Assembly (NCBI GenBank): GCA_024275575.1
Contig: JAJRYV010000053.1
Coordinates: 1-40,295 of the forward strand
From: a bacterium
Lineage (GTDB): Bacteria > Zhuqueibacterota > Zhuqueibacteria > Zhuqueibacterales > Geothermadaptataceae
DNA length: 40,295 nt
Direction: 5' to 3'
The notes under the pieces are model-generated. The model had not been told where the DNA came from, ran no database searches, and worked only from the letters and a program-made list of their open reading frames with translations. A program made the translations under genes and the position numbers. Shown here piece by piece: positions 1 through 30,679 of this stretch; the stretch's first letter is position 1, and each line of letters starts with the position of its first letter.

Positions 1-982
1 CGGGTTTTTGTGTGATGATTGAACGCTGCAAAAAGCCTGTTCCGGCAAGGAAAGCACCGGCGACGATTGTCAGAATCGCGGTGACTGATAAAAGTTTAAC
101 CCGCTGTCGTATCCACCAAACACCGGCTTTCTTCGGCGGGGCAAAATCCCAGTCATTTTCTGCAACGAAACGAAAAATCGTACTCTGCTGATCACTGACG
201 ATTTCGATCTCATCACCCGTATTTAACTGGAACTCATCATTTTCAGCAACCAGTTTCTGGTTGATATATGTCCTGGTTTTACTGCGTTTGTCATTTAAAT
301 GAAATTTATTGTCATGAAAAGAAATTGTTGCATGTCTGCGGGAAATGCTTGGATCAACTTCCCCCTTACGGTTATTTCGAATGATGATGTCGTTCAATTT
401 GCTGTCCCGCCCAATGCGTGTTTCACCGTATTTCAGTTGAAACTTTTTACCGGCATAAGGGCCGAAAATAGCCAGCAAGTAAAATGGCGCCATCTCGGTT
501 GTGTATTCATTTTTCTCTGCTGTGATGGTTTCAGTATTGGCTGCAATTTCTTTTTCTAATTGCTCAATGCTGAAATCCTCATGTTTCGTTTGCAGTGATT
601 CGGCTTCAAAAACAGGAGCATTCATCGGTTTTTCCAAGACCGCTTCCTCAGGCTGGTCACCCTGAAATGCACGCTCAAGATGTTCCAGCGGATTATCAAA
701 AATAACCAGATGATCACCGATACGGATTTCATCACCACTGGCAAGCTGCTCGAGTTTTTCCACCCGTTCATTGTTTAAAAAAGTGCCGAAAGCGCTTTTC
801 ATATCACGAACTTTGTATTGATTTCCGTGCCGTTCGATACGCACATGAGCGGCGGATATTAGTTTGTCGTTAATAACGAGATCATTCTGGTCATCTCGAC
901 CGATGGCGAATGCCCCGGTGGAAGCTTTAAATGTGATTTCATTTATAACTTCAGCTTTGTGTTTTACAATCAGTTTAGGCAT
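1..982 (-). CDS. Twin FHA-domain membrane protein (3' end cut by window edge)
   Basis: About 327 residues are visible; the C-terminus runs off base 1. The ATG at 982-980 opens a first forkhead-associated domain at about residues 1-100, with the pattern 'AIGRDDQND' ... 'ISAAHVRI' ... 'GTFLNNERV'. A second FHA domain at about residues 185-275 carries 'TRIGRDSKLNDIII' and 'SISRRHATI', the Gly-Arg and Ser-x-x-His residues that bind phosphothreonine. An acidic linker joins the two. A hydrophobic helix near residues 298-318 anchors the protein, so both FHA domains are probably cytoplasmic. The next gene upstream on the same strand is a Ser/Thr kinase whose stop lies 30 bases before this start, so this is a likely phospho-binding partner. 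FHA identity is firm; the partner role is inference. Confidence 0.85.
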   Translation of the reverse strand, partial: MPKLIVKHKAEVINEITFKASTGAFAIGRDDQNDLVINDKLISAAHVRIERHGNQYKVRDMKSAFGTFLNNERVEKLEQLASGDEIRIGDHLVIFDNPLEHLERAFQGDQPEEAVLEKPMNAPVFEAESLQTKHEDFSIEQLEKEIAANTETITAEKNEYTTEMAPFYLLAIFGPYAGKKFQLKYGETRIGRDSKLNDIIIRNNRKGEVDPSISRRHATISFHDNKFHLNDKRSKTRTYINQKLVAENDEFQLNTGDEIEIVSDQQSTIFRFVAENDWDFAPPKKAGVWWIRQRVKLLSVTAILTIVAGAFLAGTGFLQRSIITQKP

Positions 983-1011
983 GAAAGCATCTCCCTTGCA
1001 TTTCGAAGCAG

Positions 1012-3960
1012 TTAGTTCTCGGTGACAAATCGAAACGTTAAACGGTTGCGCCGGCCGGATTTAACCCGTAAATTTTTTGTAACAGGTTGATAACCTGGTT
1101 TGTTGATGGTAAACTGATACATTTCCGGCGGCAACTCCACAAATAATTCTCCCTTTTCATTTGCGCTGCCAAGTGTTTTTTCAGCTTCTTTCGTTTCGAG
1201 TAATTTGTAAGAAATATCAACGTCTTCAACAACCATATTTGTGACACTGTCAACAATGTAGATTTCCACCGGGGCGGGAATTGGATCCATGCGTACGACA
1301 ATATTGGTTTGTGTTCGTCCGATTGTGACTTCTTTATCTTTAAATCCAGGCTTTTTTAGCAACGCCGCATAAGTGTAGGGCAGGAGAGTGATCTCCGCAG
1401 GTGTGTTGACATTCATGCGTCGCGTCTTGCCACTACCACGTAACGAGACGATTTTCGCATTAATATCGTTATCATCTTTCGTGAAACTGTTTTTGACAAA
1501 TATCCGCACTTTCCGTGACAGCACCATTGTCATCCGCCCGGTGGTTTTTTCACTGACTTCCAATGTACGGCGCTTATCTATATAACCTTTTTTACGCACT
1601 CTGATCTCGTGTTTCCCGGGCGTGAGGGCAACTTCGCCATTGATACCTGAAATGCCGACCGGGCTGTTATTAATCAGGATTTGTGCTCTCGATGGAATCG
1701 ATTTAATCTCAATGTATTTGTGAAAAATCCCCTCGACACTGAAATCATCTTTTACCGGATCATTGCGGGAAAATTTCCAAAAACGACGATCCGGAATAAA
1801 CTCACTTGCATCTTCAGTGCTGATTGAAAAACCCTGCAAGTCTGGATAACCGGCAGTCATCATCTTGATCTCAATCGGTTCGCCGCTGATCTCCCAGTTC
1901 ACTACCGTTGGTGTTTTGCTGGAAATACGAATACCGTTGATCTCGATATCTGCGCCCGGAGGCGTCGAGGCAATATTCAGTTTTGTTGAAAAATGAAAGA
2001 TGAAGGGTTCCGTCGGCACAATCTGACTTTTGCCTGCTATCTGAACCGCACCTTTTCCCGGAACGTTGATCGAACGGACGATTGGCTCAAAACGTGGTAA
2101 AACGAGTTTTAACTTATGAATGCCGGGTTTGATTTTATCGAGCCGCAACGGTGTGCGTTGCTGCTGCAATACATCATCGAGGTAAACCTGGGCGCCGGAC
2201 GGATAGGAATCGATCTTTGCCGCAGGGGGTGAAATCCAGTCGTACAATGCAACGCCGAAAGCTGTTTTTTGCGTCATGACGTCAAAAACCGTATAGCTGA
2301 CTGCCAATACGAAAATCGCAATCACCGTCGAGATGATTGCCTTTTTGTGATTCCGTGTTGAGAGCCGTACGACATCGATGATCGTTTTAAGTTCCTCGTC
2401 TTCCGGTGATTCCTGCAGTTGAAATTTCATTTCAGGGCTAAAAGAAGAATCACTGGTCTCGCTTTCTGCGGTCATTTCCCTGTTGCCGGGCAAGCTGTCC
2501 GGCTCACTTGTCTGCACCGTTATTTCGTTTTTTTCGTCATTTGTGACGATCGCTTGCGCATAGTCATCATTGATGTCTATTTCCAGATCCGGCGCATCAG
2601 CGGTGAATTCTTCTGCTTTTTCTTCATTTTCCGCAGCAAGAGCGATATCTTGTTTTTCTAATTCATCGCCATCTGCTTTTTCAGAGCTTAACGGCGCCTC
2701 TTTTAGCGCCAACTCGTCGTTAAGCGCCGCGCTTGCCGGTTGAGAGTTTTCTTCCGGTGCCGAAAGATGCTCAATATCATTTTCATGAGTATTTTGCCTT
2801 TGGGCGGCACTATCTAAGTCAACTTCCAATGCAGCGTCTTCTTCGAGTGAACCATTTGCCAAAGGTTCAATTTCATTGGCAGACTCTGCATCGTGGTCGA
2901 TTTCATTTTCAAATGGTCGGCCACCATGTGCCTTAAAATTCGTGGTCTCCAATTCATCTATGTTTTGAAAACCATTAATTATTTCCTTGGAACCATCGGA
3001 AGAAAAACTGCCGGAGGTTGCTGCTACAGGTTCAGGGATGTTTTTAGAGATAAAATCACTGAGTTCGGTCATAAAATCAGCAGTCGGTGCCGTAACGATC
3101 AACTGGTGCATTAAATCCATGTAAAAGTGGTTTGCTGTGGGATATCTCTTGTCCGGGTTAATTTCCAGCGCTTTTTGGATGGCTCTGCCAACTTTCTCAG
3201 GAAGTTTTCCGTTCTCCAAACCGCTCAGATCGAGTTTTCCGGCAATCAACTCATTCACCACAGCCTCCGGTGTATTCTGTTTGATAACCCGCTCACCGGT
3301 TAGAATTTCATAGAGAACAAGCCCAAGCGCAAAAATATCAGCACGGCGATCGAGCTGGCCGGAGTTTTTCACCATTTCCGGGACGATGTAATTCAGTTTG
3401 CCCTGAATGACGACTTCTTTTTTATTTTTCGGCTGTTTGCGACGAAGGTTGGCCATACCGAAATCGATAAGTTTGACTTCTCCCGAACGTGTGATCATGA
3501 TATTCGACGGTGAAATATCCTGATGTACGATGTTCAGCGGTTCATTCGTTTGTGAATCGCGCCGATTATGCGCATAATCGAGCCCGGCGCAAGCCTCTGC
3601 GATGATATACAGCCCAAGATGGAGAGGTAGCTGGAAATTGCCCGAATTACATTCTTTGATCAATGTGCCGAGATCAGGCCCATCAATAAACTCCATAATG
3701 ATATAAAACTGTCCCGTCGGGTCCCGTTTAATATCAAAAATATGAACGATATTATGATGACTGAATTGAGCGATATTGAGCGCTTCGGCCTGAAACATGT
3801 CAATATATTTGGCTTCACCTAACAGATTGGGATCGACAGCTTTGATCGCGATAGGTTTGCCAAACGTCAAGTCAACGCCTTCATAAATCAATCCAAATCC
3901 ACCTCGCTTGATCTCACGATGGATTTCATACTTTTCGTCAATGACCCTGGTAACACTCAT
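1012..3960 (-). CDS. Transmembrane Ser/Thr protein kinase with extracytoplasmic PEGA repeats
   Basis: About 982 residues. The N-terminal kinase domain (about 10-290) has a glycine loop 'RGGFGLIYEG', the VAIK-type lysine K40, catalytic D148 in 'VHQDISPSN', and the DFG motif 'IDFGMA' with D166. Q147 replaces the usual HRD arginine, making it a non-RD kinase. A long acidic linker (about 330-530) follows, then one membrane helix (about 541-563). Three PEGA-like repeats come next ('IDSYPSGAQVYLDD', 'NIASTPPGADIEING', 'EIKSIPSRAQILINN'). A carboxypeptidase-regulatory-like beta domain ends the protein. Known PEGA modules are beta-sandwiches often found outside the membrane. ATG 3960 is chosen over an upstream TTG at 4026 because GAGGAG precedes it and the kinase fold starts at once. 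It probably phosphorylates Ser/Thr on envelope or regulatory partners, including the adjacent FHA protein (inference). Confidence 0.88.
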   Translation of the reverse strand: MSVTRVIDEKYEIHREIKRGGFGLIYEGVDLTFGKPIAIKAVDPNLLGEAKYIDMFQAEALNIAQFSHHNIVHIFDIKRDPTGQFYIIMEFIDGPDLGTLIKECNSGNFQLPLHLGLYIIAEACAGLDYAHNRRDSQTNEPLNIVHQDISPSNIMITRSGEVKLIDFGMANLRRKQPKNKKEVVIQGKLNYIVPEMVKNSGQLDRRADIFALGLVLYEILTGERVIKQNTPEAVVNELIAGKLDLSGLENGKLPEKVGRAIQKALEINPDKRYPTANHFYMDLMHQLIVTAPTADFMTELSDFISKNIPEPVAATSGSFSSDGSKEIINGFQNIDELETTNFKAHGGRPFENEIDHDAESANEIEPLANGSLEEDAALEVDLDSAAQRQNTHENDIEHLSAPEENSQPASAALNDELALKEAPLSSEKADGDELEKQDIALAAENEEKAEEFTADAPDLEIDINDDYAQAIVTNDEKNEITVQTSEPDSLPGNREMTAESETSDSSFSPEMKFQLQESPEDEELKTIIDVVRLSTRNHKKAIISTVIAIFVLAVSYTVFDVMTQKTAFGVALYDWISPPAAKIDSYPSGAQVYLDDVLQQQRTPLRLDKIKPGIHKLKLVLPRFEPIVRSINVPGKGAVQIAGKSQIVPTEPFIFHFSTKLNIASTPPGADIEINGIRISSKTPTVVNWEISGEPIEIKMMTAGYPDLQGFSISTEDASEFIPDRRFWKFSRNDPVKDDFSVEGIFHKYIEIKSIPSRAQILINNSPVGISGINGEVALTPGKHEIRVRKKGYIDKRRTLEVSEKTTGRMTMVLSRKVRIFVKNSFTKDDNDINAKIVSLRGSGKTRRMNVNTPAEITLLPYTYAALLKKPGFKDKEVTIGRTQTNIVVRMDPIPAPVEIYIVDSVTNMVVEDVDISYKLLETKEAEKTLGSANEKGELFVELPPEMYQFTINKPGYQPVTKNLRVKSGRRNRLTFRFVTEN

Positions 3961-4264
3961 TTTTCTCGATGACTCCTCGATTAGGACCAAAGGGAATATT
4001 AATGCGGAGACTGACCGCCGGCTCAACCGGGCAAATCAACTGGTATTGGGTTGGGAATAAACTGTTTTTTCACAGCTTTAAAAATACCACAATCGTAGAT
4101 CAGGTCTGATCTGCTCCGCATTTTTTTGCTCAATTTCCCAGCTTCTTGCGAATTGTTTGCAAATAATAACGAAATTTGTAGATTTATTCATTTTTATGTA
4201 CCGCTTATAAATAGCATATGCTGAAACAAAAAATGAACGAATAAACAGGTATGGCTTTTATAAG
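3961..4264. other. Intergenic region between TPR gene and kinase gene
   Basis: About 300 AT-rich bases without a convincing gene. They contain the perfect inverted repeat AGATCAG-GT-CTGATCT (4097-4112) and the palindrome AGCATATGCT (4213-4222). The first is followed on the plus strand by seven T nine bases later, too far for a canonical terminator. It may be an operator or a weak hairpin in the kinase leader. No clear -35/-10 pair for the kinase gene could be identified. Confidence 0.4.
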
Positions 4265-4708
4265 CTATTTTACTTGTTTTCTGACAACTTCCTGCTTCAA
4301 AACTTTTTCCAAAACTTCAATCGCATCATTATCAGAATGGCCGTCTTGCAGGTATTTTTGCATCACGAGCGAGGCAATTTTATTGCGCTGGTTGGTATTG
4401 ATGGATAATTGCAAGGCGCGTTTATAAACATGAATTGCCGCTTTATCTACTCGACCGCTCAGCAAATAAATATGTGCCAGTTTAGGATAGATTTTTTTTC
4501 GGGTTGGGTTTCGTGATATTATTTTTTCGTAAATAGCCGCAGCGGCATAATAATCCTTTCTGACAAGATAGTATTGCGCGCGCATATCCGGCGAGATGAT
4601 AAAACCAAGAAGAGGCAGGATGATTATCGCTGAAATGCCGAGGAAAAAATATGATAATGGATTTTTATTGGGTGTTGCGGGAATTTTTGCCGTATTTTGC
4701 CGGTGCAA
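4265..4708 (-). CDS. C-terminal part of TPR membrane protein (separated by an in-frame TAG)
   Basis: Encodes one transmembrane helix ('FFLGISAIIILPLLGFII') followed by TPR-like helices ('YYLVRKDYYAAAAIYEKII', 'PKLAHIYLLSGRVDKAA'). The only local start is a TTG at 4708 with no clear ribosome binding site. The reading frame is open further upstream, through 'LLSQARAELHRQ', straight to a TAG at 4733-4735 that ends the larger TPR protein in the same frame. It therefore reads as the tail of one roughly 534-codon gene rather than an independent one. Whether it is translated separately is unknown. The combined protein would have an N-terminal signal sequence, TPR repeats, a membrane helix and more TPRs. 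Confidence 0.6.
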   Translation of the reverse strand: MHRQNTAKIPATPNKNPLSYFFLGISAIIILPLLGFIISPDMRAQYYLVRKDYYAAAAIYEKIISRNPTRKKIYPKLAHIYLLSGRVDKAAIHVYKRALQLSINTNQRNKIASLVMQKYLQDGHSDNDAIEVLEKVLKQEVVRKQVK

Positions 4709-4732
4709 TTCTGCCCGGGCCTGACTGAGTAA

Positions 4733-5869
4733 CTAATCTGATCCCTTATAATCACGGTGCAAGTTCTGTAAAACCTCGAAATCAATCGTCGCATCAAGCC
4801 AGTTCTTCTCATTAAATGCGGTTAATGCCCGGGTATACAGGGAATCGATATCGATTCGAAATGATTGCGTTAAAATGTCGGAATTGATCGAGTTAATTTC
4901 ATCAAAGCTGGCCTGCGGCAGCTCCTCAAGTGGTCTTGTGGTGTCATCAGGTGTTGAGTCAAAAACTTCGAGTTGAACATCTGTTTCAAGCTTGTTCGTC
5001 GGCAAAACGGCTGTTTTATCCGCAAGTTTGCGAAAATCAACCCGAGGTGCAAATTCTCTTTGAATTAGCGAATCGGCATTTGAGGACAGGGCTGTCCCGA
5101 TTTTTTTTTGCTCCGGATTTTCTTCATCGGCACGTTTTATCGCCGCATGCAGCGATTTCAGTTTGGTCTCAACATTTTTAAATCCCGGTACAATCTCATT
5201 GATCTCGGCAAATAAATCGTAAGCAACCTGAAAGTTTCCATTGGAGCGCTCCTGCTCCGCTTGTGCATATTTTTGTTCCAGACCCTGCGTCGTCTTAATT
5301 ATTTCAATCAGATTTAAATAACTTTTTGTATCTTTTTCCACCAAACCTTTAGACTGGGTTAAAATCGCCATCGCTTTTTCATAACGGCTTTGCTTGTAAT
5401 ACAAACGTCCCAGCTCAAAATCAAGCTGGCTGCGAAACGCCGGTGTTATGGGTAGTGATTGAATCTCATTTAATATTTTTTCATAGAGCTGGTATTTGCC
5501 GTTTTTTTCATATGCATTCGCCAAATCATAAAGGACTTCAACTTTTTTATCATCCTTTAAATTCTCATCAAAACTGTTGCGTGCCAGTGAAAAGTAATTC
5601 TGTGCGTCGCGGTAGTTATGTTGTTGTTTATAAATTAGTCCGATTTCATAAAGCGCTTTCGCATGTGTCGGCTCCAATACAATGATTTCATTGAGTTTGT
5701 TCAAACGGAGAATGGTATTTTTCTCCTTTAACGCTTTTTTATATAACTTTGATATATTCGGCGTCTGACCTGCACAGGGAAAAACAGTAGCCAATCCAAC
5801 GATAATTATCAACGTGATTGTGATCTTTTGCATGCAAACCAATGCTTTTAGCAGAAGGCGTATTTGCAT
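4733..5869 (-). CDS. TPR-repeat envelope protein, N-terminal part (ends at in-frame TAG)
   Basis: About 378 residues. The start at 5869 is preferred because AAGG lies six bases before it; an upstream TTG (5905) and an internal ATG (5833) are alternatives. The N-terminus is a signal-like hydrophobic stretch ('TITLIIIVGLATVFPC'), which might also offer a lipobox-like cysteine. TPR units follow, for example 'AKALYEIGLIYKQQHNYRDA', 'VEVLYDLANAYEKNGKYQL' and 'RSQLDFELGRLYYKQSRYEKA', then a low-complexity linker and another TPR start ('LYTRALTAFNEKNWLDA'). The product stops in the middle of this last repeat unit, and the frame continues beyond the TAG into the next entry. TPRs mediate protein contacts. 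Function is unknown, but it sits upstream of the kinase/FHA pair on the same strand. Confidence 0.7.
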   Translation of the reverse strand: MQIRLLLKALVCMQKITITLIIIVGLATVFPCAGQTPNISKLYKKALKEKNTILRLNKLNEIIVLEPTHAKALYEIGLIYKQQHNYRDAQNYFSLARNSFDENLKDDKKVEVLYDLANAYEKNGKYQLYEKILNEIQSLPITPAFRSQLDFELGRLYYKQSRYEKAMAILTQSKGLVEKDTKSYLNLIEIIKTTQGLEQKYAQAEQERSNGNFQVAYDLFAEINEIVPGFKNVETKLKSLHAAIKRADEENPEQKKIGTALSSNADSLIQREFAPRVDFRKLADKTAVLPTNKLETDVQLEVFDSTPDDTTRPLEELPQASFDEINSINSDILTQSFRIDIDSLYTRALTAFNEKNWLDATIDFEVLQNLHRDYKGSD

Positions 5870-11540: not shown

Positions 11541-12053
11541 ATGTTAAAACTGAATTTGAAGCAACACAGCAGCGACCGGGCTAATTTGCGTGAATTACAT
11601 GAAACGGTTATCGAACGGGCGCAGGAAGGTGATGAACTCGCTTATAAAGAGTTATACCGGCGCTACTGCCGGGTCGTTTATACCCTCGCTTATCAGATGC
11701 TGGGCAATCATAGTGATACCGATGAGGTTGTGCAGGAAACCTTTATTCGTGTCTTTAAAAATTTACACCGTTTACGCAATACAAAAGCGTTTACTTCATG
11801 GCTTTATCAAATTGCGATGAATCTCAGTATTGACCACCGTAAAACTCGAACCCGCCGGCGCATGTTGCCCATAGATGAACGACCAGAATATGTGAGCAAT
11901 TATGAATTAGCTACGACAAAACACGTGCGCAATCCGGGGCAGGTTTTAGAGAATAAAGAACTTCTGGGACAGATCAATAATGCGATCGATGGCCTGCCCG
12001 AACAACAGCGTGCCGTTATCATCATGCATGAAGTTGAAGGCATGTCAAAATAA
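11541..12053 (+). CDS. ECF-type RNA polymerase sigma factor, truncated by in-frame TAA
   Basis: 170 residues up to the stop. Region 2 is clear: 'AYKELYRRYCRVVYTLAYQM', 'DTDEVVQETFIRVFKNLHRL' and 'AFTSWLYQIAMNLSIDHRK'. Region 4 begins with 'AIDGLPEQQRAVIIMHEVEG' and is cut by TAA after 'MSK'. In intact ECF factors this point is followed by the helix-turn-helix that reads the -35 element. The same frame continues past the TAA with exactly that sequence (next entry). As annotated the product could bind core RNA polymerase and the -10 element but would lack most of its -35-binding helices. The ATG at 11541 is the first in frame. The following gene is an anti-sigma factor, a typical ECF arrangement. 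Confidence 0.85.
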   Translation: MLKLNLKQHSSDRANLRELHETVIERAQEGDELAYKELYRRYCRVVYTLAYQMLGNHSDTDEVVQETFIRVFKNLHRLRNTKAFTSWLYQIAMNLSIDHRKTRTRRRMLPIDERPEYVSNYELATTKHVRNPGQVLENKELLGQINNAIDGLPEQQRAVIIMHEVEGMSK

Positions 12054-12158
12054 ATGATTTCCGATATTCTCAAGTGTTCCCTGGTGACTGTGCGCACCAA
12101 TTTACATCATGCACGAAAAAAATTGCGTCAGAATTTAGCCAAATATATACAAGAGTAA
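12054..12158 (+). pseudogene. In-frame continuation of sigma factor region 4 after the TAA
   Basis: 34 codons starting with an ATG directly after the TAA and ending with TAA at 12156-12158. The translation 'MISDILKCSLVTVRTNLHHA' then 'RKKLRQNL' matches the helix-turn-helix of ECF region 4 (family pattern: I-a-e-I-L-g-x-S-x-g-T-V-r-x-x-L-h-x-A-R-k-k-L). No ribosome binding site precedes the ATG, though stop-start coupling could reinitiate. It is most simply the broken end of the sigma gene, giving a 205-codon full length if read through. Confidence 0.75.
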
Positions 12159-12173: not shown

Positions 12174-12752
12174 ATGGATTGTCAGGAAATTGGAAAATAT
12201 TTACTCGATTATCTCGATAACGAGACCTCAAACTCGATTTCACAGGCTGTCGAAGAGCATCTGAATTTATGCAATCATTGCCGCAGTGAGTGGGAGGCAT
12301 ACAAAAAAACCAACATGTTGATTCAGTTGCGCAATGTACCGCAACCGGAGGACACCTACTGGAATAAAGCTTATGCTGCAATTGCAGAAAAACTCGCAGC
12401 CCGTATCGTCGCCATGCCAATTGAGCATGATGCCGGCATAGTGGATGATTTTCTTCACGGCCATGGACAGTCAACAAATTGGCACAAACGTATTTCCTAT
12501 CTCATCAGCGTCGCCGCCACGATTATTTTCATTATTGCCGGCTATTGGATGAGCAACAAAATAGCTGAAAAACCGGACGAGGAATACAATACGGTCATCG
12601 TCGTTGAGCCGGAATGGCGCGGTATGCCGGCCTCCCAAAACTTGCACACCAATTTTCAGCCGGATGCGGATTTCAGCAAATTTTCCGGCGCTGCAATCGG
12701 CATTATCAGCCCAGTTTCGCAAGGCCTGCGTGTGGAGGCAGTGCTTAAATGA
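12174..12752 (+). CDS. Zinc-finger anti-sigma factor, membrane-bound
   Basis: 192 residues. The N-terminal zinc-binding anti-sigma (ZAS) motif is H-x3-C-x2-C, seen as 'HLNLCNHC' near residues 32-39, preceded by the usual 'DYLDNET' helix. This domain clamps the cognate ECF factor at the membrane until a signal arrives. A single membrane helix ('ISYLISVAATIIFIIAGYW', about 104-122) leads into a short periplasmic tail of some 65 residues. It starts 15 bases after the end of the extended sigma reading frame and overlaps the next gene by ATGA, so the genes are translationally coupled. Partner assignment rests on adjacency and family convention. Confidence 0.85.
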   Translation: MDCQEIGKYLLDYLDNETSNSISQAVEEHLNLCNHCRSEWEAYKKTNMLIQLRNVPQPEDTYWNKAYAAIAEKLAARIVAMPIEHDAGIVDDFLHGHGQSTNWHKRISYLISVAATIIFIIAGYWMSNKIAEKPDEEYNTVIVVEPEWRGMPASQNLHTNFQPDADFSKFSGAAIGIISPVSQGLRVEAVLK

Positions 12753-13378
12753 GATTTAAAAGATTGATTTGTTTCTTCTTTTTGCTCCAGCTTGCCTGCA
12801 CCCGGAATCCAGAAGAAGGCATTCATCTGAAGTTTAAATATACTCCAGGCACAACTTATCACTATGAAATGACAGATGTCGTCGTCGACAGATTCGGCGA
12901 CCAGGCCGGTGATACGATGAATGTTAATGGATTTCAGACGCAACGCATCACCATCGAAACGCTGGAAAAAGACAAAAATAATGTCTATAATTTGAACATC
13001 AAATTTTTGGTGACAAAAGATACGGCGATCTATTCTGAAAATTTCCCCAATGAAAAAAAACGTCTTAAACCGATGATTGGCCACAAAAGCCAATATAAAA
13101 TCAAGATGAGCTCCATGGGTAAAATTTATGATGTTCTGGGCGAAGATGAAAAAAGCACGAGATTTTACGAAGAAGCCTACAAATCGAATCACCCTGTTTT
13201 TCCGGATAAAAAAATCATACCCGGCTATAAATGGAACAAAAATGTTTACATCAATTATGGGGAAGATGCCCCTTTTCGGGTGACGACAAAATTCAAGTTT
13301 ATCGGGTATGAAACGGTCGATAACCAAAATTGTGCGGTAATCTCATTCAGCAGCCGTACCAAAAGGAAAATGATCTGA
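12749..13378 (+). CDS. Putative lipoprotein, N-terminal part (frameshifted)
   Basis: 209 residues as read. A lipoprotein signal is visible: 'MRFKRLICFFFLLQLAC', with lipobox L-Q-L-A-C at residue 17. The rest is beta-rich ('KFKYTPGTTYHYEMTD', 'FKFIGYETVDNQNCAVISFS') and resembles periplasmic proteins of unknown family that follow sigma/anti-sigma pairs. The tail after 'VISFSS' ('RTKRKMI') looks spurious, because the adjacent frame continues with a long, similar beta-rich sequence. The start overlaps the anti-sigma stop. The function is unknown; a sensor or secreted effector of the sigma pathway is possible. Confidence 0.7.
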   Translation: MRFKRLICFFFLLQLACTRNPEEGIHLKFKYTPGTTYHYEMTDVVVDRFGDQAGDTMNVNGFQTQRITIETLEKDKNNVYNLNIKFLVTKDTAIYSENFPNEKKRLKPMIGHKSQYKIKMSSMGKIYDVLGEDEKSTRFYEEAYKSNHPVFPDKKIIPGYKWNKNVYINYGEDAPFRVTTKFKFIGYETVDNQNCAVISFSSRTKRKMI

Positions 13379-13620
13379 CGAACAGTGAATACAATAAGCA
13401 GGGATACCAGAAATGGCTTTGGAACATCGAGACCATCAGCAAAGGCAAGATTTTCTTTTCAACCAGTCAGGGATATTTAATTCAGAAAGAACGGTTGATG
13501 ACTTTCAACTCAAAAAGCGAAATTATTGATAAAGACAGCGTCAAAAAGAAATCCTTCCGCGTCAGAACGGATAAAGAAACTATCCGGCTTACGGGATTTA
13601 ACAAACAAAGTGATAACTGA
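13330..13620 (+). pseudogene. C-terminal continuation of the putative lipoprotein in the -1 frame
   Basis: This frame overlaps the end of the preceding entry and continues it. 'YQKENDLTNSEYNKQGYQKW' is followed by 'ISKGKIFFSTSQGYLIQKER' and a basic tail, ending in TGA at 13618-13620. It has no start codon of its own with a ribosome binding site; the first candidate is a TTG at 13330. A one-base deletion somewhere between about 13340 and 13378 would explain the pair as one roughly 290-residue protein. No canonical X-XXY-YYZ slippery heptamer was recognised at the junction. Confidence 0.6.
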
Positions 13621-21906: not shown

Positions 21907-24900
21907 ATGGCAGATAAAAATATTTACACAGAACAATCGCAGCTCTATGAGAAGATAAATGCCGCGATTCATCGTTGGCGGCGTGATATGGCTATTAAAG
22001 GAAGCGCAATCGTGCTGAGTATTTTTGCCGGCAGTCTCAGTTTTATCGCGGTTTTTGCTTCTTACTGGGCGAATGCACCTTATCTCATTCCCGCTGTCGC
22101 TCTCCTGGGGACATGCGCTTTACTTTTCGCAGTCGTCAAATATATTATCCTGCCTTTTCGTGAAGATATTTCTCCGGGAAAAATCGCCCGCATTCTTGAA
22201 ACCAAACATCCGGAGCTCGAAGACAGACTGGTGACCGCCCTGGATTCATCTATCCGTCGGAGGCAAACCGACGTTTTCTGGTTGACAAAAATAATTGAAC
22301 AGGCTGCGGTGCACACGAAGGATATTTCATTTGAAAAAGCGGTAACACGTCGAAATACACCTTTGTGGGCAACGATTTTTTCCTGTGCCTGCATGTTGCT
22401 CGTTCTCATTCTTTTTTCCAAAACTCGCTGGCAACCCCATATCAGAACGATGATCAAGGCTGATTTTCAAGCGCCGAAGCCATTACCGCAACTCTATGTC
22501 ACCCCGGGTGATTCACGCTTGCGGCGCGGCGGCAGCTTGCAGGTATCAGCAACATTGAAAAACTATATGCCCGATGAGGTTATGCTTTATTATTCCGATA
22601 GCGATAGCCTCTGGCAGCGCATGACCATGCAGCCGCAGGGTAAAGAAAAGGCTGATATGGGTTACGAGTTTTTTGATATTCAAAAGGATTTTCAGTACTA
22701 TGTCCGTGCAGGAAGCGAGATCAGCGATGTCTTCCAGATTACGGTTTTTGAGGCGCCACAAATCAAAAAAATTGATCTGACGTTTCGCTATCCGGCCTAC
22801 ACAAAGTTAAAAACGCGCAAAGAAGCAGATAGCGGTGATGTCTGGGCGCCGGTCGGCACCGAAGTCACCATCGACGTCCTGAGCTCGGTGGCCATTGTCA
22901 AAGCAGAATTCATTATCGGTGAGGAAAAACCGTTCAAGATGCGACTGACTTCAGATAGCACTGCCTCCGGAAAACTCACTGTTGTGGAAGATTCATTTTA
23001 TAAAATACGGTTTGAAAGCACCGACGGGCTGGATAATACGCCGTTGGTGGAATACTTTATCCGTGCGCTCAAAAATCAAGCGCCTGCGATCACTGTTATC
23101 AAGCCGAGCAGGGATATCAAAGCAACGATGCTGGAGGAAATCTCCCTGGCCGCAGATATCAGCGACGATTTCGGACTGGAAAAAGCTGTTCTCGTCCTGC
23201 AGATCAATAGCCGCCCGGAGATGGAATTTGCACTCGTTGAAAAACCGGGTGAAAAAATCCAAAATGAACTCAGTTATCAAACTCATGAGTTTTCAACAGT
23301 ACTTTATCTTGAAGATTTGAATCTGAAACCGGGCGATTTTGCGTCCTATTATTTCCAAGCACGTGAGGGCGCCGGCAGCACGACAATTTCCGATATGTAC
23401 TATATCGAAATTGCCAACTTTGATCATATTTATAAAGTTGCGACGAGCGCCGGCGTGCAGGGCGCCGGCAGTGATAATGCACCGCAATTTGCAAAGCTGC
23501 AAAGGGATATTATCACCGCGGCAAATAAATTGATTAAAAATAAAGCGATTATGCCGGATGATGAATATCGGATCAATCTGGAAAGCCTGGCCAAAACACA
23601 AACCGGTGTTCGCACCAGCATCGAATCGATCGTTCAGCGGGCGAAACTGCGTGGCCGCATGCTGCAACAGCAGCAAAATCAGATCGTTGATGCTTTGGCT
23701 GATGCCGTTTCTGCAATGAAAGATGCGGAACCCAGGATCGAAAATGATTCGCTTTCTGCAGCGATGCCCGCTATGCGCAATGCCTATCGTTACCTGCTCA
23801 AAGCGGACGTGCTGGTGCGTGAACGGCAAATTTCCAACAGTCGCTCACGTGGACAGGGTGGCGCGCAAAACCAGCGGGAATTAGCCCGGCTGTTCCAGGA
23901 TGAACTCGATAAAATTAAAAACAAGTACGAGACGTTGCAACAAGGCGACAATAAACAGGCGCAACGGGAAAAAGACGAAGCTTTGCGGAAAATCCAGGAA
24001 CTGGCGCGACGGCAAAACCAGTTGAACCTTGCGAACAGGCAACTGGCGCAACAAAATTTTTCGGAGGCAGAGAAGAAACGTGAAATTAAAAAATTGCAGC
24101 GGCAACAGGAACAATTAAACAAAGACACTCAAAATATGCTGCAACAGATGGCACAAAACCGGAACCAGCAGGAAGCGCAACAATCAGCACAAAACAATAA
24201 CGAATTGCGCAAAGCCAGTCAGGCAATGAAGCGGGCAACGCAGAAATTGCAGCAACAACAACCGCAAAACGCACTCGCCAGTGGACAGCAAGCACTGGAA
24301 AGATTGCGCAAACTTGAACAGCAACTGCAAAATTCGCAAAGTGACGAACACCGTGAAGCCTTGCAAAAAATTCAAAACAAAATGAATTCTCTTGCCCGCA
24401 AGCAAAAGGATTTGGCAAAGGAAACGGAGAGAATTCAAAAAAGCGCTGCTGCAGACTCGAACGCGGCAAATGAAAATATTGCTCAACAAAAAAGATTGCG
24501 CGATGAATTTAATAAAATGCTCGAAGATATGGAAGGGCTGGCGCAACGATCGGCAACAACACAGGCTGATAGCAAACGCGAATTGCGGGATATCGAATCA
24601 CAACTCAAAAATGACGGCATCGAAAATCGCATGCGGCAGGCGGAATCAGCATTAAAAAAACACCGGCTGGATAGCGCTGAAAAGCTGCAAAACTCCATTC
24701 ATCATGATTTAGCCGCCGTCGGAAAAGATTTGCAGCAGATTGTGCAAAACCTCAAAAAAATGAAAAAAAACGATCTGCAAAAAGCGCTTGACGCAACCCG
24801 GAAATTGCGTCAGCAACTGGAAAAGCTGGGTTCCCGCTACAACGCTTCAAATGCGAAGAAACAGAGGCAGACAGATGCTGACCAGAAAATCCAGGAAGAA

Positions 24901-29602: not shown

Positions 29603-30679
29603 ATGCAGCAGGCTCTTGAACTGGCACAAAAAGGCCGGGGTCTGGTGCTGCCAAATCCACTCGTCGGTTGTGTGGTCGTAAAAAATAACCAGATCGTTGG
29701 CAAGGGATACCATCAAAAATTTGGTGAAGCCCATGCTGAAGTCAACGCTCTGCAAGATGCGGGTTCACAGGCTCGAGGAGCGACACTGTATGTTACTCTT
29801 GAACCCTGCTGTCATACGGGCAAAACACCGCCTTGCACGAATGAGATTTTACAATGCGGCATTAAAAAAGTGGTCATCGCCTGTTCTGATCCTAACCCAC
29901 TTGTGAGCGGCAAAGGCATAAAACAGCTAATTGCCGCGGGAATCGAAGTTGTCTCGGGTGTTCTGCAGGATGAAGCTTGTCATCTCAACCGGGTATTTAA
30001 CAAGTTTATCAGGAGTCGTAAACCCTATATCACTTTAAAAATAGCACAAACACTCGATGGGAAAATCGCCGACATAAACCACAAATCCAAATGGATTAGC
30101 GGGGAATTATCACGGGAATGTGTGCATCGTATGAGATTCGAAAGCGGTGCAGTGCTCGTCGGTGCCGGCACGGTTTTTGCAGACAATCCACGTTTGACGG
30201 TGCGGACATTTCATATTTCTGAGCAGCCCTGGCGAATTGTGATCGATCCGAAACTGATTGCGCCACTTAACTCACTGGTTTTTGCTGATGAGTTGAAACA
30301 CCGGACCCTGGTGCTGATATCGAAAGACCAAAGTCAAAAGGCAAAAGCTGAAAAGCTAGTTCGAAATGGTGTAAAAATCGTTGTCTGCGACCAAACAGCA
30401 ACCGGGCATTTCGATCTGAATAAATTGCTCGATAAATTGGGGGAAATGGGGCTGGCGCATATTTTAGTCGAAGGAGGGCAAAAAATATTCAGCTCTTTTT
30501 TCAAACAAAAATGTATCGATGAGCTGCAGATATTTATTGCTCCGAAATTATTCGGTCAGGGACTTTCCTCCCTGCAAGTGCCCGGCTGGACTGCTGATTC
30601 CCCGTGCATATTGGAAAATACAAGCTGGAACAAAATGGGGAATGATTTATTGTTTACCGGATATTTTCAACAGACCTGA
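29603..30679 (+). CDS. ribD: Bifunctional riboflavin biosynthesis deaminase/reductase RibD
   Basis: 358 residues. RibD deaminates 2,5-diamino-6-ribosylamino-pyrimidinone phosphate, then reduces the ribosyl side chain with NADPH. The N-terminal deaminase has 'PNPLVGCVVV' and zinc ligands H44 (in 'HAEVNAL', with E46 catalytic), C69 ('EPCCHTGKTPPC') and C78. Their spacing matches the E. coli enzyme. The C-terminal reductase starts near 'KPYITLKIAQTLDGKIAD' and carries 'GAGTVFADNPRLTVR' and 'ILVEGGQKIFSSF'. The first ATG (29603) has no good Shine-Dalgarno, and homologous sequence 'AENYF' extends nine codons upstream to a TGA (29576-29578), so translation may begin at a non-ATG codon there. It lies under the FMN riboswitch. 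Confidence 0.95.
   Translation: MQQALELAQKGRGLVLPNPLVGCVVVKNNQIVGKGYHQKFGEAHAEVNALQDAGSQARGATLYVTLEPCCHTGKTPPCTNEILQCGIKKVVIACSDPNPLVSGKGIKQLIAAGIEVVSGVLQDEACHLNRVFNKFIRSRKPYITLKIAQTLDGKIADINHKSKWISGELSRECVHRMRFESGAVLVGAGTVFADNPRLTVRTFHISEQPWRIVIDPKLIAPLNSLVFADELKHRTLVLISKDQSQKAKAEKLVRNGVKIVVCDQTATGHFDLNKLLDKLGEMGLAHILVEGGQKIFSSFFKQKCIDELQIFIAPKLFGQGLSSLQVPGWTADSPCILENTSWNKMGNDLLFTGYFQQT

Follow-up and report, generated by a model that had tools for sequence, protein, structure and literature searches.

A gene for a TPR protein on the bacterial contig JAJRYV010000053.1 (assembly GCA_024275575.1, Geothermadaptataceae), the whole 40,295-nucleotide stretch of which is referred to here as the window, is divided by one in-frame TAG, and the locus raises the question of whether this stop is a property of the living cell or of the draft sequence.

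The interrupted TPR gene and its orthologs

On the minus strand, the frame extends from the ATG at 5869 to the terminal TAG at 4265–4267 (535 codons) and has its sole internal stop at codon 379, which confirms the original prediction of a frame open from 5869 to 4265 (534 codons) except for one TAG at 4733–4735. TPR repeats were detected with Pfam on either side of this TAG, and the 155 codons that follow it match the ortholog in the same-genus genome G001 with 72% identity over 153 codons (E = 1.1e-71; 59% identity for the gene overall), in agreement with the claim that coding is uninterrupted on both sides. Based on this homology, the stretch after the stop is real coding sequence. The gene as a whole is read from its translation as one continuous protein of TPRs, a putative membrane helix, and further TPRs, and it possesses the architecture of the TPR family of the kinase cluster described below, namely, TPRs before and after a hydrophobic segment (by eye) and homology to full-length members. 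Its proposed assignment as an "envelope" gene is plausible, on the basis of two hydrophobic stretches judged by eye.

Table 1. Positions of the genes, gene parts, and lesions discussed (window coordinates unless a contig is named)
Feature	Position	Strand	Basis or remark
TPR-TM-TPR gene	4265..5869	−	534 codons and terminal TAG, one interruption; TPR families by Pfam
Premature in-frame TAG, codon 379	4733–4735	−	Sequence reading; stop found in none of 34 other homologous sequences
Part before the stop: N-terminal hydrophobic segment (by eye) and TPR repeats	4736..5869	−	Pfam TPR matches, residues 60–181
Portion following the stop, with membrane segment and C-terminal TPRs; best-conserved portion of the gene	4265..4732	−	Pfam TPR_19, TPR_14; 72% identity; pN/pS 0.21
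Hydrophobic segment YFFLGISAIIILPLLGFII, putative membrane helix	4595..4651	−	Judged by eye from translation
Ser/Thr kinase with PEGA domains, next cluster gene, intact	1012..4026	−	Pfam Pkinase 7.6e-36, PEGA 6e-25
FHA/FG-GAP gene, cut by the window end	2..1009	−	73.5% to G001 ORF; Pfam on the G001 gene
ECF sigma factor gene with premature TAA at 12051–12053	11541..12155	+	87% identical to intact ortholog
Gene with frameshift near 13360–13369	12749..13608	+	Single 293-aa frame in same-genus relative
Window lesions	TAG 4733; TAA 12051; frameshift near 13,360
Contig C61 lesions	TAA near 60,640; frameshift near 23,620
Contig C128 lesions	TAG in nusA near 29,836–29,838; frameshift near 43,840	− (nusA)

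The ortholog in G001 is an uninterrupted 534-aa frame at the same genomic place (C14:203961–205520; L035:13916–15520). An internal stop shared with G001 was rejected as a candidate, as reading of the DNA identified the "1 TAG" listed in the G001 match as the terminal stop of that gene. Family matches at E ≤ 0.001 were obtained in 28 of the 40 genomes searched (the source genome counted), most of them to paralogs, and the same-family genomes G004 and G006 carry single 547-aa frames that are 31% identical to the window gene; the same-genus genome G002, with a contig that breaks off early in the gene, was left out of the stop comparison. A search of a genome-contig collection with the whole TPR protein yielded no match. 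By nusA, the source organism was placed near a MAG labelled Calditrichaeota bacterium CLD5, since G002 produced the same matches as G040, the genome behind that record; in the taxonomy, this name belongs to Calditrichota. A search of relatives returned orthologs in single frames rather than two separate genes, and the orthologs in G001, G004, and G006 thus bear out the proposal that one gene has been split. Gene fission, in which a second gene would start on its own at the TTG at 4708 or at a later codon, is scarcely credible: a 147-aa ORF with a TTG start does exist after the stop, but every ortholog seen is a single frame, and inspection by eye revealed neither an ATG ahead of the putative membrane helix nor an obvious ribosome-binding site upstream of the TTG.

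At the alignment column of the TAG, the 34 homologous sequences include 1 Ser, 5 Thr, 12 Asp, and 3 Gln, and none of them shares the stop, the conservation of which in relatives would be expected of programmed readthrough. The aligned codon in the G001 ortholog is TCA (Ser), and all three Gln codons are CAA and occur in distant family members. These codons do not favor the proposed change of CAG to TAG, and an ancestral Gln codon at this site is not indicated by the alignment.

When the window gene was compared with its G001 ortholog, the 369 codons upstream of the stop gave a pN/pS of 0.40, with 0.30 in residues 40–250 and 0.21 in the 44 codons that directly precede it; the 152 codons downstream gave 0.21, and the last 97 of the gene 0.13. 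dS was saturated in this comparison, so that the ranking is safe and the values are not. No sign of decay downstream of the stop was seen, and none would be expected from an error or from an event that happened very recently. An old pseudogene, in which several lesions and relaxed constraint would be present, was rejected on the single lesion and on the lower pN/pS after the stop than before it.

Reading of TAG in the source genome

Decoding of the stop as an amino acid, whether by pyrrolysine, by amber suppression, or by programmed readthrough that yields both a short and a long product, would be compatible with the unbroken coding on both sides of the TAG and with the presence of TAG at two of the four internal stops found, the second one being in nusA. 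However, the best match to pyrrolysyl-tRNA synthetase (PylS) in the genome reached 25.8 bits, below the cut-off of 178.15, and none lay above it. Rfam detected 41 tRNA genes (of 219 candidates, 150 were scored), and all 41 were read by ARAGORN. No stop-reading anticodon, CUA included, was found in this set, in which a gene could have been missed and which is incomplete, as it contains no tRNA-Ile (gat) and no tRNA-Ala (tgc). TAG also terminates 20 of the 124 genes compared here, a count that includes the lesion, and 17 of 121 genes in G001, and it is the true terminal stop of the interrupted TPR gene. The remaining lesions of the assembly, described below, are TAA codons and frameshifts, which are beyond repair by amber decoding. 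TAG is an ordinary stop in the source genome, with nothing to suggest that it is decoded by a special mechanism. The in-frame TAG between conserved coding stretches resembles known pyrrolysine or amber-suppressor decoding and differs from it in that neither a PylS above the cut-off, a CUA anticodon among the tRNAs found, nor conservation of the TAG accompanies it here. Decoding of the stop is therefore regarded as very unlikely, and a similarly slight chance is given to a real TAG with low-level readthrough, by which soluble periplasmic and membrane-spanning forms would be produced from one gene, an arrangement that would have arisen in this species alone.

Lesions in other genes and the cause of the stop

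For a survey of lesions, the proteins of G001 were compared with 160,494 bases of the source genome (the window and contigs C61 and C128), and the reverse comparison served as the control. An internal stop or frameshift was found in 7 of 121 genes here and in 0 of 123 genes in the control (Fisher p = 0.007), an excess over the related genome of the kind predicted by sequence error. Of 17 rows with a stop or frame change in the source genome, 10 were discarded: 8 were located upstream of the probable start codon, 1 was at the gene end, and 1 belonged to a spurious short ORF next to a tRNA. The reverse comparison gave 16 such rows, all of which were discarded because they fell ahead of the start or at the gene end, some of them judged by position only. 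Each of the seven genes contains exactly one lesion with good alignment on both sides, and the lesions comprise 2 TAG, 2 TAA, and 3 frameshifts, corresponding to about 44 per Mb (7 in 160 kb). The window (3/26) is not significantly worse than C61 and C128 together (4/95, p = 0.17). The assembly consists of 144 contigs for 4.96 Mb, which are fairly long.

One of the two TAG lesions falls near codon 24 of nusA on C128 (L070). The identity of this gene was confirmed by its model, and it is the sole copy above the cut-off in the genome; a stop was found in nusA of none of the six relatives searched, that of G006 being covered by a partial match. A shortened NusA might be rescued by an in-frame ATG further downstream. 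In the window, the TAA of the ECF sigma factor gene sits in the last helix-turn-helix region and is missing in six of six relatives; a 192-aa ORF at 12174 follows this gene. A second ECF sigma gene, on contig C102 (L195), also possesses an internal TAA. Internal stops were thus present in 2 of 17 ECF sigma matches here (a third being doubtful) compared with 0 of 70 in six relatives, in a sample that is drawn partly from other contigs and in which one of the two is the window gene already counted among the 7 of 121. Flagged rows numbered 4 of 17 here and 2 of 70 in the relatives, and all six were inspected: of the four, two were internal, one was at the gene end, and one was doubtful, while the two in the relatives lay outside the gene proper.

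Based on these lesions, an assembly or base-call error is considered the probable cause of the TAG at 4733–4735. A technical rather than a mutational cause is favored because of the stop in nusA, the mixed lesion types, the presence of one lesion per gene, and their spread over several contigs, and if sequence error is the commonest cause of lesions in this assembly, it would also be the most likely one for this TAG. Single-base lesions would then be scattered through the draft sequence, the TAG being one among many, and the living cell would most likely make the whole TPR protein. One lesion per gene with good flanking alignment is the pattern expected of random errors, and the raised rate of lesions of mixed kinds, the internal TAA codons in two ECF sigma genes, the stop in a sole nusA that is intact or open in all six relatives, and the lack of decay after the stop point in the same direction. 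On the other hand, the observed lesion density would require a rather poor draft despite the fairly long contigs, the shortened NusA might be saved by its downstream ATG, and except for nusA no clearly essential gene is among the seven broken ones, which would allow for a real recent loss of the TPR gene. Moreover, real pseudogenes in bacteria not unusually amount to several percent of the genes.

A smaller but appreciable possibility is a real recent nonsense mutation, which would make the gene a young pseudogene or limit its product to the N-terminal 378 residues, so that the membrane segment and the conserved TPRs at the C-terminus would be lost. A single clean TAG in a frame that is otherwise intact and free of decay fits a young mutation equally well, intact family paralogs on C61 might tolerate the loss, and the affected genes besides nusA look dispensable. 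Nevertheless, the stop in the sole nusA and the raised single-lesion rate in conserved genes favor a technical cause, and the adjoining kinase gene is intact, with no wider decay of the cluster. The likeness to a young nonsense pseudogene lies in the one stop in a conserved, otherwise undamaged gene, whereas the genome-wide pattern with the nusA stop suggests a technical cause here. If the stop is real, it would represent an ordinary recent gene inactivation within a Ser/Thr-kinase signalling cluster.

PMC11017572 attributes many of the internal stops that make bacterial genes look like pseudogenes to assembly errors, and an excess of internal stops is reported there to follow poor assembly quality. 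The present case resembles those spurious pseudogenes in that isolated stops and frameshifts exceed those of the neighbor genome and include a gene expected to be essential. The formal test described there compares neighbors of at least 99.9% ANI and is not applicable here, as the nearest genome belongs to another species of the genus, with 59% identity for the TPR protein. Assembly error, which the original prediction had set against its own reading, has become the leading explanation on account of the lesions in other genes, nusA included, and the proposal of a truncated soluble protein or readthrough was premature, given the similar single-lesion rate elsewhere in the assembly. Single in-frame stops in draft genomes need to be weighed against their own lesion background before a biological reading is given; this background is high here, with nusA among the genes affected, and no function should be built on the TAG at 4733–4735. 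The interrupted gene is a membrane-linked TPR gene of an ordinary bacterial kind, next to a gene for a protein kinase, and its stray stop is confined to this assembly, with sequence error as the most likely cause and a recent inactivating mutation as the next.

The kinase gene cluster

As in G001, the TPR gene immediately precedes the gene for the PEGA Ser/Thr kinase, and the kinase gene is 66% identical to its ortholog and free of internal stops. In G001, the cluster is composed, in order, of the TPR gene, the PEGA Ser/Thr kinase, an FHA/FG-GAP gene, a PP2C-type phosphatase, two TPR paralogs, and a TPR-kinase. In the source genome, the cluster is likewise headed by the TPR gene, with its first genes in the window and the next ones on contig C61, where the family paralogs are intact. 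In G004 and G006, the TPR gene is followed by an ORF of about 1024 aa. The series of TPR, PEGA kinase, FHA/FG-GAP, PP2C, TPR, TPR, and TPR-kinase genes is a conserved cluster (L035, L036, L037), for which no published description was found in the literature with the terms used. From its gene content, the conserved TPR/kinase/PP2C cluster looks like one signalling unit, and, going solely by gene neighborhood, the TPR protein is probably a membrane-spanning partner of the adjoining Ser/Thr-kinase signalling cluster.
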